DNA of 64,000 nucleotides. It comes from a bacterium (lineage in GTDB: Bacteria; Vulcanimicrobiota; Vulcanimicrobiia; Eremiobacterales; Eremiobacteraceae). A program made the translations under genes and the position numbers. A model generated the notes under the pieces. That model was given only the letters and a program-made list of their open reading frames with translations, was not told the origin of the DNA and made no database searches. Of the stretch, positions 60,352 through 64,000 are shown piece after piece (positions within the stretch are counted from its first letter, which is position 1; each line of letters starts with the position of its first letter). The DNA lies in contig CADDZI010000005.1 of NCBI GenBank assembly GCA_902812405.1, positions 1-64,000 of the forward strand. Direction: 5' to 3'.

Positions 60352-60669
60352 ATGAGTGATGCTGCCATGGCCGGTGTGGAAACCGGCCTACGATTTGCTC
60401 AAGCGCGAGCGGCTCTCTTGGCAGACGATATCGCCAACCTGCAGTCGCCGGGCTTCGTCCCGCACGACGTCCACCTGGTTGCGGCGCCGCCCAACTCAGC
60501 TTCGCCTTTTGGGGCTGTCTTCGAAAGGATCGACGCAGGCCCAGTCCAGACTCTCGAACGGGCCCTAGGCGCGGCCGCTCACAATGCGATTACGTATCGA
60601 GAGCTGACCGAGCAGGAACATGCGATGCTCCGCGAAGTGCGGATCGTCGCAGAAGAGTCACGGAGGTAG
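60352..60669 (+). CDS. flgB: flagellar basal-body rod protein FlgB (short)
   Basis: FlgB is a proximal rod protein of the flagellar basal body. The 105-residue product has the rod-family start LRFAQARAALLADDIANLQSPG (the N-A/D-I-A-N-x-x-(T/S)-P-G motif) and ends with the matching C-terminal helix YRELTEQEHAMLREVRIV. It is shorter than the usual 125-135 residues because the middle region is reduced. A TATACT at 60313-60318 may be the -10 of the operon promoter. It is the first gene of the flagellar cluster. Confidence 0.85.
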   Translation: MSDAAMAGVETGLRFAQARAALLADDIANLQSPGFVPHDVHLVAAPPNSASPFGAVFERIDAGPVQTLERALGAAAHNAITYRELTEQEHAMLREVRIVAEESRR

Positions 60670-61269
60670 ATGCCGGTGGATGACATCTATAGCATTGCGG
60701 CCAGCGGTATGGCCGCCCAGCGCACGCAGATGAACCTCATCGCCGAAAATCTCGCCAACGCGGGTCTGCCGCGCAGCGACGGGGCAGCCTTTCATGCACG
60801 GAGCGCAGTCTTTGCGCCGGTTGGGTCGTTCGAGCAGGCGTTATCCGGAGCATTCAGCTCGGCGGGTGACCAGATAGGTGTGAATGTCCTTGCCGCTTCA
60901 AGCCCGTTTGACGATGAGGGCCTTGGCCGGGATAACGAAACGGTATCTTTCGGCGATTGGGGTGCAGACGCGGATGCAGACATCCAGGAGGCCGGCGTTT
61001 CCCTCGCGGACACGACGCATCCATTCTCCGGTGTCGCCGTTGCAGATATCGTGGACGATCCACAGCCTGTGCAGTATACGTTCGATCCCGGTAACCCGTT
61101 TGCCGCCAAGAGCGGACCGCGCAAAGGCTACATTGCCCTCCCCGGCGTCGATCCCATACAGCAGATGGTCGAGATGATGGCTGCCGGGCGGGCCTACGAT
61201 GCAAACGTCAGCATGCTCTCAGCGGCCAAGCAGATGGACATCGAGGCCGCAGACATAGGGCGCCTGTGA
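60670..61269 (+). CDS. flgC: flagellar basal-body rod protein FlgC (with insertion)
   Basis: FlgC is another proximal rod protein. The 199-residue product begins IYSIAASGMAAQRTQMNLIAENLANAG, the rod signature, and ends GYIALPGVDPIQQMVEMMAAGRAYDANVSM, the typical FlgC end. Between them lies an acidic insertion of about 50 residues (for example DNETVSFGDWGADADADIQEA), so it is longer than the usual 140-150. It starts immediately after the flgB stop. Confidence 0.9.
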   Translation: MPVDDIYSIAASGMAAQRTQMNLIAENLANAGLPRSDGAAFHARSAVFAPVGSFEQALSGAFSSAGDQIGVNVLAASSPFDDEGLGRDNETVSFGDWGADADADIQEAGVSLADTTHPFSGVAVADIVDDPQPVQYTFDPGNPFAAKSGPRKGYIALPGVDPIQQMVEMMAAGRAYDANVSMLSAAKQMDIEAADIGRL

Positions 61270-61661
61270 TGGGTGGCGATGCTCTGGCCTATGCGCCGCT
61301 AACGGTCACCCCACCCACGGGCACCGCCGCAACGGACGGTGCGGGCCGCATACCGCCACCGATGGGCGGCTCTTTAGAGGGCTTGAGGGCAACGGACGCC
61401 GCGTTGCTGACCTCGGATGCCACAGCGACCGCGGCTGCACCCAGTCCGAGTTTTGCCGACGCCCTGGGCCGGGCGCTGGACAGCCTCTCGGGTGCACTGT
61501 CGCAGGCAGACACCTTGGCGGCAGGGGTGGCTGTGAATCGTGCTGAGGTTGCGCAGGCGGCTATCGCCCGGGCCAAAGCCGACACGATTCTCGAAATTGC
61601 CGCCATCGCCGCAGCCCGCGTAAGCGGCGTCATCACGCAGCTGTTGCAGACGCAGGTCTAA
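61269..61661 (+). CDS. fliE: flagellar hook-basal body complex protein FliE
   Basis: FliE links the MS ring to the rod. The 130-residue product has a disordered Pro/Thr-rich N-terminus (1-55) and the conserved helical C-terminus FADALGRALDSLSGALSQAD, followed by VAQAAIARAKADTILEIAAI and ending VSGVITQLLQTQV. A GTG three bases upstream is also in frame. The flgB-flgC-fliE-fliF order is the standard one. Confidence 0.85.
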   Translation: MGGDALAYAPLTVTPPTGTAATDGAGRIPPPMGGSLEGLRATDAALLTSDATATAAAPSPSFADALGRALDSLSGALSQADTLAAGVAVNRAEVAQAAIARAKADTILEIAAIAAARVSGVITQLLQTQV

Positions 61662-61663
61662 GC

Positions 61664-63094
61664 ATGCTGGCGGGATTGCCTGCAACGCTGCCGGACCTGG
61701 TGATCCGCTGCCGCTCGTGGCTTGCACCCCGCCCCATACCGGCGATTGCGGCGATTGCGTGTGGGATCGTGGTTCTTGTCCTCATCACGGATGCGAACCG
61801 GCGGGGCGCAGGCGTACCGCTCTTCAGCGTGCCCCTGCACCCCACGCAGGCGCTGGAGGTCGAGAAGGCGCTCCTGTTGTGGAACGAGCCGTTCACAAGC
61901 GACGCCCAACACACCCAAATTTACGTGCGTGCGAGCCGCCGGCGCGACGTTGCCCTGCGTTTGACCCTGGCCGGCCTGCCGCACGGATACGTACCGACCA
62001 GTGCCGACGTCATGCAGGACCCTCCGCCTGCCTTTGCTCCGCAATCCGTGATCGATGACCGGCGCCGAGCGGGTATCGAAGGCGATCTGGTATGGGCTCT
62101 GCGTCGGCTGCCGGGTATAGCGGATGCCAGCGTGGTCATCGCCCCGGCGCAAGATGACCCGCTTTCCGTCGACGCATCCCCCTCGCCGCCCAGCGCCAGC
62201 GTCCAGATCCTTTTGCAGCCGGGCGTACACCTCACCGCCACCGAAAGCGAGGGCATCAAGCGCTACGTAGCGGGCGCCTACCCGGGCTTGACGCCGCAGA
62301 GGGTCGTCCTGGTGGATGATGCGGGCTTGGCGTCGGCGACGCCGGCCCCGGATGCCCTCGCAGCACGCGAACTGCGGGTACAAAATGCCATTCAGACCGC
62401 GCTGGACGCCGTTTTTGGTTTGGGCGCAGCCGTCGTCCGGGTGAGTTTACGTCCATCCCCCGAACAGGTCTCGATGCACCGTACCGTCGTGACGCCCCAC
62501 GGGCTCGTGGAATCGGACCGCAGCTCGGAGAGCGGTACGGATGCGGCCAAGCATTTTCTGCGCCAGCACGAGCACAGCCGGTTTGCGTACGATACGACCG
62601 AGGAAACCCGTTCAACCGGCGTGGCGGGAGCGGTTGCGCATCTCTCAGTGGCTGTCTTTCTCAATGCCAACCGCGTCGCCGCGACCGCACCACAGCAGGT
62701 TGCAAGCTTTGTGCGCGCGGCTGCGGGAGCCGATCTCTCGCAGGGCGATGACGTGGTCGTCAGCGCACTGACGTTTTCGCAGACGCCGTCCGTCACAGGG
62801 CGCGACGCGTTTGCCGCCCGGAGGCGACGCTTGTGGGTGCCCGCCGCGGCTGTTGTCGCCGTCATCGGCATTGCCTGCACCGCGGGCCTCGCATACCGCA
62901 GCCTGCGCGGTGCGCCCGATGCAGAGATCGCTCGAGGCGTGCATCGAACACTGCGCGCCGAGTCTCCGCAAACCGCGGCGTACGTGCTGGGGACGCTTCC
63001 CGACCGCCTGCGATCGCGCATCTTGGCCGAGTACCACGGCGTCCAGCGTGACGCAATCCTCTTGTATTTGCGCGATCCTAGCAGACATGGCTGA
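61664..63094 (+). CDS. fliF: flagellar MS-ring protein FliF with FliG-like C-terminal segment
   Basis: FliF forms the membrane-supramembrane ring on which the flagellum is built. The 476-residue protein has two membrane helices (about 27-43 and 390-414) around a periplasmic ring-building region, with YPGLTPQRVVLVDDAGLA matching the RBM3/FliF core. It is shorter than the usual 530-570 residues. The cytoplasmic tail of 62 residues contains ESPQTAAYVLGTLPDRLRS, similar to the HPQTIA.IL..L.P repeat of FliG. No separate fliG follows; fliH comes next with an 8-base overlap. Confidence 0.85.
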   Translation: MLAGLPATLPDLVIRCRSWLAPRPIPAIAAIACGIVVLVLITDANRRGAGVPLFSVPLHPTQALEVEKALLLWNEPFTSDAQHTQIYVRASRRRDVALRLTLAGLPHGYVPTSADVMQDPPPAFAPQSVIDDRRRAGIEGDLVWALRRLPGIADASVVIAPAQDDPLSVDASPSPPSASVQILLQPGVHLTATESEGIKRYVAGAYPGLTPQRVVLVDDAGLASATPAPDALAARELRVQNAIQTALDAVFGLGAAVVRVSLRPSPEQVSMHRTVVTPHGLVESDRSSESGTDAAKHFLRQHEHSRFAYDTTEETRSTGVAGAVAHLSVAVFLNANRVAATAPQQVASFVRAAAGADLSQGDDVVVSALTFSQTPSVTGRDAFAARRRRLWVPAAAVVAVIGIACTAGLAYRSLRGAPDAEIARGVHRTLRAESPQTAAYVLGTLPDRLRSRILAEYHGVQRDAILLYLRDPSRHG

Positions 63095-64000
63095 TCTTGC
63101 CTTTGTGCCGCTCTCCCCGCGGCGAGCGTCTGCCAAGACCGGGCCGCCATCAAAAGTGCACCCGCAATCCGTGCCAGGCGAGGTGCTGGGTTCCCCAACC
63201 CCGGGCAACACTCCAGGGTGCGTGACGCAGCCGGTGGACGAGGCTCCGCCGCACGAAGCCCCCCAAGACCAAGCCGCACAAGACCTGCCTGGCCAGTCTC
63301 CCGGAATGCAAACACCCCACGTGGCCCCCCACGACGAGGCCGCAGAAGGCTTCCGGGCGTCGCACTCAGCGCGGCATGATCCCCATCCGCCGCCCCAACA
63401 CGAGGCCGCAGAAGACAACAGAAGATCATCCGAGAGCGGCGCCGGGGCGAACGCCCCGGATCCCCGGGGCCACCCCATCATGCAGTCGCCGTCCGGCTCG
63501 CTCGCAGACGCGCCCGTTACGGGTACGAACCAAACGGCGATAACCAATGGACCCGGTGGGGTGCTGGGAACCCAGAGCCTAGGCGATCAAGGGCAGCCTG
63601 CAAGCGGCAGCGACATCGGTCCAACCTCGGTACCGCCCACGACCGCGGCCGGTCGGTCCGATGACGGCGACGCATCGCCCGTTCGCAATGCAACTCAGAC
63701 AACACAGGCGAGTCCCGGCGGCAGCCCGCACGAGGCTGCAGCCCACGCGGACACACGTCTTCAGGCGTTACACGCCGACATGCGGATGCGGGAGATCATC
63801 CGGCGCGAGGCTGTTCGCTTGGCTGCGATCGCGTGCGGGCGAGCCTTGCGGCACGCCCTGCTCATACATCCCCGTGCACTGGTAGCCTTTGTCGACGAGG
63901 CGATTGCGGCGGCAGGTCACCCACCGGATGTACGACTGCACCTTCACCCGGTCGTCAAGGGCGAAGTGGAAAGTCTCGGCCTGGTGTGCCATGAGAATGC
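63087..64000 (+). CDS. FliH-like flagellar assembly protein (partial, runs off the window)
   Basis: The frame is open from ATG 63087 to the window end (304 codons). The first 215 or so residues are a low-complexity Pro/Gly/His/Ala linker with recurring HEAAED-type units. After this comes a coiled helix (DTRLQALHADMRMREIIRR) and a FliH/YscL-like domain start: ALLIHPRALVAFVDEAIAAAG, then VRLHLHPVVKGEVESLG. FliH regulates the FliI export ATPase. Identity rests on this last part and on its position after fliF. The linker is unusually long for FliH. Confidence 0.7.
   Translation, partial: MADLAFVPLSPRRASAKTGPPSKVHPQSVPGEVLGSPTPGNTPGCVTQPVDEAPPHEAPQDQAAQDLPGQSPGMQTPHVAPHDEAAEGFRASHSARHDPHPPPQHEAAEDNRRSSESGAGANAPDPRGHPIMQSPSGSLADAPVTGTNQTAITNGPGGVLGTQSLGDQGQPASGSDIGPTSVPPTTAAGRSDDGDASPVRNATQTTQASPGGSPHEAAAHADTRLQALHADMRMREIIRREAVRLAAIACGRALRHALLIHPRALVAFVDEAIAAAGHPPDVRLHLHPVVKGEVESLGLVCHEN

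Follow-up and report, generated by a model that had tools for sequence, protein, structure and literature searches.

The locus studied here raises a simple question: how is a flagellar-type operon built when fliF is followed directly by fliH, and what has become of FliG? In the flagellum, FliG_N is the part of FliG that attaches to FliF, FliG_M the part that attaches to FliM, and FliG_C the part on which MotAB exerts torque. The original prediction was that FliF at this locus is naturally fused to a fragment of FliG and that the fusion replaces the FliF–FliG joint. We examined this proposal in a window of 64,000 nucleotides (bases 1–64000 of a 71.4-kb contig), in the 2.32-Mb genome to which it belongs (110 contigs, 96.65% complete), and in related genomes.

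Gene Order around fliF

On the + strand of the window, a flgB-like proximal rod gene (60352–60669, 105 aa) is followed by flgC (60670–61269, 199 aa), fliE (61266–61661, 131 aa), fliF (61664–63094, 476 aa), and a fliH-like gene (350 aa) that occupies 63087–64000 of the window and continues to contig position 64139. Beyond the window end lie fliI (64158–65501) and an SLT lytic transglycosylase gene. Pfam identified flgC by Flg_bbr_C (44.7 bits) and Flg_bb_rod (19.0 bits) and fliE by FliE (26.0 bits, above the cut-off). The flgB-like frame alone has no Pfam match above the cut-off and was assigned from its position, its conservation, and the flgB place of a sister-class operon. Pfam FliH likewise gave no match to the window's own fliH-like frame, which was assigned from its operon place and from a homologue of family f2 that occupies the same place and matches FliH with 35.3 bits. 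The N-terminal half of the window's fliH-like protein (63087–64000), about 200 residues, is of low complexity and rich in P, A, and H, with repeats such as HEAAE and HEAPQDQ.

The FliF protein contains the ring-building domain YscJ_FliF (residues 58–221; 61835–62326, +; 68.2 bits) and the C-terminal periplasmic domain YscJ_FliF_C (residues 290–371; 62531–62776, +; 42.1 bits), both above the Pfam cut-off. A second membrane helix, seen in the AlphaFold model, and a linker follow at residues 380–415 (62801–62908, +), the linker being the least conserved part of FliF with 21–34% identity. The cytoplasmic tail then carries a FliG_M match at residues 428–466 (62945–63061, +). FliF had been expected to be 60–90 residues shorter than normal. 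It is indeed short, and the difference is slightly larger than that estimate, at 80–100 residues relative to the 559 and 574 aa of canonical FliFs from the phylum. The predicted overlap with the next gene is exact: the fliH-like ATG starts at 63087 and the fliF TGA occupies 63092–63094, so that the two genes share exactly 8 bases. This overlap leaves no space for fliG at that place, and no fliG lies between fliF and fliH.

Loss of FliG, Motor and Filament

The prediction had left the torque-generating part of FliG either encoded elsewhere or lost. Neither FliG_N nor FliG_C is present in the 96.65%-complete assembly, which supports loss and leaves the idea of a part encoded elsewhere without a candidate. 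A standalone FliG_M and a complete fliG are also absent from this genome, and a distantly located, split FliG_N or FliG_C was rejected since neither was found. MotB, flagellin, FlgI (P-ring), and any FlgE/FlgK-type protein are missing from it as well. The 13 other genomes of the window's family likewise lack FliG_N and FliG_C, and none of FliG_C, FliG_N, MotB, flagellin, and FlgI was found in the 14 genomes of the family together.

We refer to the flagellum-like system with the FliG_M-tailed FliF as system B and to the second flagellum of the class as system A. Within a panel of 61 related genomes, 34, including the window's, carry system B only, as judged by this FliF or the SpoA set, without FliG or stator, and 22 carry also a second, normal flagellum with a complete FliG. 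FliG_C, FliG_N, and MotB co-occur in exactly the same 22 genomes, with flagellin above the cut-off in 21 of these and FlgI in 21; FliG_C is absent from the window's genome and 38 others. Genomes with system B only typically encode three FlgC/F/G-type proteins, compared with 7–11 in FliG-bearing genomes, so that no FlgE or FlgK is visible in the former. An assembly gap hiding fliG is implausible over 34 genomes, one of them a single contig, and the 8-base overlap leaves no room for the gene. One genome, G025, contains FliG and MotB and lacks flagellin and FlgI; it carries two copies of the FliG_M-tailed FliF.

Retained Parts of a Proposed Export Machine

The window's genome keeps FlgBCFG, FliE, FliH, FliI, two SpoA proteins, FliPQR, and FlhBA. 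A locus on contig 22 encodes the two SpoA proteins, FliP, FliQ, FliR, FlhB, and FlhA, and a locus on contig 79 encodes flgF, flgG, and a FliA/WhiG-family sigma factor. In f2 genomes, the fliF operon and the SpoA/export-gate locus form one cluster. The sigma factor follows flgF-flgG in both the window's family and f2 (L147 4672–5448), despite the lack of flagellin. In G021, a metF-like gene (methylenetetrahydrofolate reductase, by sequence) separates fliP from fliQ, and in G014 such a gene adjoins the export cluster (L052 14753–15655; L053 6212–7090). Just upstream of the first SpoA gene is a conserved protein of ~240 aa (L054 8568–9308; L052 12348–13070), whose f2 copy alone weakly matches the FlgE/F/G D1 domain; it may possibly be an extra axial or cap protein.

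The FliM/SctQ-like partner, SpoA1, has a recognisable SpoA domain. Its N-terminal ~180 residues match no known domain in Pfam or PDB profiles, and the canonical FliG_M–FliM_M contact surface is not recognisable from its sequence. A FliM middle domain in SpoA1 was considered and set aside, as the hhalign signal was weak (E 5e-4, prob 14%) and was confirmed by neither Pfam nor PDB profiles.

Could this machine be a contact-dependent injectisome (NF-T3SS) delivering effectors to other cells? There is no motor, the SpoA genes are split as in some injectisomes, and FliQ is marginally closer to SctS than to FliQ. However, FlhA scored 672 bits as flagellar versus 510 bits as SctV, FliP 207 versus 162 bits as SctR, and FlhB 177 versus 152 bits as SctU; FliR and FliI too scored higher as flagellar than as Sct, with all five flagellar-type scores (FlhA, FliP, FliR, FlhB, and FliI) under the curated equivalog cut-offs. 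The system also retains the rod genes of a flagellum (FlgB/C/F/G) and an MS-ring protein of the FliF type. On these gate, ATPase, rod, and ring comparisons, we consider an injectisome unlikely and treat the system as a flagellar-type machine.

Identity of the FliF Tail

The tail sequence on which the prediction was built had been read correctly, and its likeness to FliG is not a chance one. In the full-length window FliF, Pfam FliG_M matched residues 428–466 with 17.4 bits. The tail alone matched with 21.8 bits (E = 2.2e-4), which is below the curated cut-off of 25 bits; its assignment therefore rests partly on the tails of relatives. All 33 related tails matched FliG_M, with a best E of 5.5e-11, and the curated cut-off was exceeded by the FliF tails of 42 genomes, namely every one of the 41 f2/f3 genomes in which this FliF occurs, plus a single f1 genome. 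A profile of the 33 tails was searched against all PDB sequences. The first 11 matches were FliG, aligned at the middle domain (E 1.1e-8 to 2e-4), and the 12th was an artificial FliF–FliG fusion aligned inside its FliG part; no native FliF was among the matches. With hhalign, the same profile aligned to the phylum's own FliG with an E of 3.7e-6 and a gap-free core. The register can be followed by eye, with FliG PAQLLQFIQDEHPQTIALILVYMQPEQAGAVLSALPPELQAEVAMRIA against the FliF tail PARVRSMLEQEPPHAAAAIISALPAATATAVLELYPPHEREAIVRRMQ.

Structure prediction of the tail alone, suggested as a check, agreed with the profiles. The AlphaFold model of the window tail has four helices with a mean pLDDT of 90.6. 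Foldseek returned FliG as the best PDB matches (prob 0.99–1.00, TMq 0.75–0.78), including the FliM–FliG middle-domain complex 4qrm (TMq 0.78), with E-values that are weak because the domain is short. In the full-length FliF model, of low overall confidence (pLDDT 75, pTM 0.41), the tail is placed after the second membrane helix at 380–415, as expected of a cytoplasmic tail. Compared with the FliG middle domain PF14841 (Thermotoga maritima structures 3ajc and 4qrm), the tail has in common the sequence profile, the four-helix fold, and the E-x-P(Q/H) motif, which in the window reads ESPQ (62960–62971, +). It differs in being joined to FliF and cut to about the first 48 of the 76 Pfam columns, roughly two thirds of the model with the EHPQ region included. 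By profile comparison and structure modeling, the last ~50 residues of FliF are a FliG middle-domain (ARM_M) fragment and not an ordinary FliF C-terminus, which supports the prediction of a natural fusion.

Two other origins of the tail were weighed. An independent superhelical-repeat domain of the MgtE_N or YlxF/MotE-like type would agree with Pfam MgtE_N matches in 29 of the 33 tails and with the presence of MgtE and the FliF–YlxF model 9a67 among the Foldseek matches. However, FliG_M is far stronger than MgtE_N (best E 5.5e-11 versus 3.8e-5, 33 versus 29 members), MgtE folds rank after FliG in Foldseek, the E-x-P of the EHPQ-like motif is invariant in all tails, and the helices align with those of FliG without gaps. 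Moreover, what the ancestral operon has lost is exactly the fliG slot, and we hold this origin to be quite improbable. That the tail is an ordinary FliF C-terminus, with helices co-folding with FliG_N and resembling FliG_M by chance, is hardly credible: canonical FliF tails too hold a helix of the E-x-P-x-x-x-A type (such as QENPDSIAKLVKLWLAE of G056), but the idea is refuted by the profile comparisons, since hhalign against canonical same-class FliF left the tail unmatched (prob 0.1%, E 0.48) and the PDB search gave no native FliF, while canonical same-class FliF does not match FliG_M, the FliG-homologous stretch of ~50 residues extends past the canonical FliF end, and no FliG_N is present to bind.

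The tail is conserved to different degrees in different families. For the f2/f3 FliFs, mean pairwise identity reaches 76% in the tail, compared with 57–60% in RBM1/RBM2, 45% in RBM3/collar, and 33% in the linker. The FliFs of the window's own family share 46% identity in the tail, which is less than the 57–59% of the ring domains and far more than the 26% of the linker. Residues E433, P435, A439, L454, and R462 are invariant in the FliFs of both families.

Distribution and History

When 84,980 species were scanned by a method that reaches close relatives only, this FliF was detected at 71 loci, almost all of them in Candidatus Eremiobacterota or bacterial MAGs. Among 121 genomes surveyed in the phylum, the FliF tail is present in 85 of 96 same-class genomes; in the 25 genomes of other classes, tail matches, if any, fall almost only within frames of ordinary FliG length. 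In an unrooted tree, the FlhA proteins of system B form one clade with 100/100 support that is split by family, and the system-A FlhA of the class groups with second flagella of other classes. A recent duplication of the class's own second flagellum as the source of system B was rejected (AU p 6e-9 for an FlhA A+B clade). Three genomes of other classes of the phylum (G064, G070, and G112) gave 10–15 FlhA/SctV-like matches, many spanning only the cytoplasmic C-terminal part. Judged from this tree and this distribution, the best explanation is that the system is old and vertically inherited in one class of Eremiobacterota (WPS-2), which are little-known bacteria of soils.

A genome of the sister class has the operon flgB-flgC-fliE-fliF-fliG-fliH-fliI-fliJ-SLT, which is the window order plus fliG and fliJ; its FliF has 574 aa and its fliF and fliG are spaced by 8 bases. 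At the level of gene order, this comparison shows the loss of fliG from its ancestral slot between fliF and fliH, with the FliG_M fragment staying on FliF. In the simplest history, the neighbouring genes fliF and fliG would have fused where they stood through deletions, which may have removed FliF's own C-terminus, FliG_N, and FliG_C, in steps whose exact course we infer.

The loss of all motility genes would also be expected of a decaying flagellar remnant without function, and in G041 the fliF frame appears broken. However, 85 of the 96 class genomes have the system, FlhA divergence tracks the families, the tail is the most conserved FliF segment in f2/f3, and frames are open in nearly all loci, including a single-contig genome of ~3.5 Mb. 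We regard decay as very unlikely. The G041 case itself, in which a short frame of its own encodes the FliG_M tail (G041:C57:20558–20710), suggests a frameshift or sequencing error in fliF.

The single-contig genome, G014, measures 3,508,363 bp with ~69% G+C in the stretches read; it carries this system and has no FliG. The genome of Vulcanimicrobium alpinum WC8-2 is 3.50 Mbp in size with 68.4% G+C; those who described the organism observed neither flagella nor a gene for flagellin and credited motility to type IV pili (PMC9758169). G014 is likely of this species, and the cultured, non-flagellated V. alpinum therefore appears to carry this system, which makes the question open to experiment in that organism.

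Proposed Mechanism

We consider it probable that the inherited flagellum was stripped of rotor and filament and turned into a static, motorless exporter of flagellar type that keeps its rod, with the FliM-binding part of FliG borne by FliF itself so as to dock the SpoA ring. With FliG_M on FliF, the MS ring would bind the ring of SpoA proteins (FliM/SctQ-like and FliN) directly and without FliG_N. The piece retained is the FliM-binding FliG_M (ARM_M, with its EHPQ motif) and not the FliF-binding FliG_N, so the FliF–FliG_N joint would be unnecessary, in line with the proposal that the fusion replaces this joint. From this we infer that FliF meets the SpoA ring directly. Docking of the SpoA ring would position the FliH–FliI ATPase beneath the FlhA gate, and export would proceed through a short rod from a static base. 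No rotation is expected because the torque helix (FliG_C) and the stators are gone. As to the cargo, our guess is rod subunits and a few envelope or secreted proteins.

On a broader scale, we lean toward the view, with somewhat less assurance, that a flagellum was here converted, independently and for a second time, to an export or envelope machine that does not rotate, with FliG trimmed to its FliM-binding module and joined to the MS ring, that this state was fixed in the ancestor of the class, and that the machine still runs beside true flagella in some members.

It has long been asked how a rotary flagellum becomes a static secretion machine, and the question is familiar mainly from injectisomes, which just lack FliG. 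In the present system, an intermediate step would be written in one protein, with the FliM-binding part of FliG surviving on FliF and the torque part and stators gone. This arrangement predicts that the essential task of FliG outside the motor is to suspend the SpoA ring and the ATPase from the MS ring.

Comparison with Known Systems

In the open full-text literature, outside of which most subscription papers lie, we found no description of this system in Eremiobacterota and no published natural FliF–FliG fusion, only engineered ones. The NF-T3SS of Myxococcales, early-branching from the ancestral NF-T3SS (Abby and Rocha 2012, PMC3459982), likewise has a flagellum-related export core without motility essentials and no known outer-membrane channel. 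In contrast to it, the Eremiobacterota core scores as flagellar, rod proteins are kept, and FliF carries FliG_M. Chlamydia, which has no flagella, nevertheless has FliF, FlhA, and FliI, and the C-terminal 70 residues of its FliF bind a partner (PMC2830194). Whereas that account deals with three flagellar orthologs beside an injectisome, the Eremiobacterota keep the rod, the SpoA proteins, and a full gate, and have FliG_M as the tail of FliF. A flagellar gene set has also been simplified in evolution in the degenerate flagella of actinobacteria (PMC10746217). Unlike the Eremiobacterota system, they are still flagella, with a reduced rod and with FliG in the conserved core.

A further likeness is to laboratory constructs. 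Full and deletion fusions of FliF and FliG were engineered in Salmonella, according to their citation in PMC6079021, and a FliFG fusion was engineered in Vibrio alginolyticus (PMC11481574). In these constructs, FliG sequence is covalently attached to the cytoplasmic tail of FliF, as it is here. The Eremiobacterota fusion differs from them in being natural, in carrying FliG_M only with no torque domain, and in being fixed in a class.
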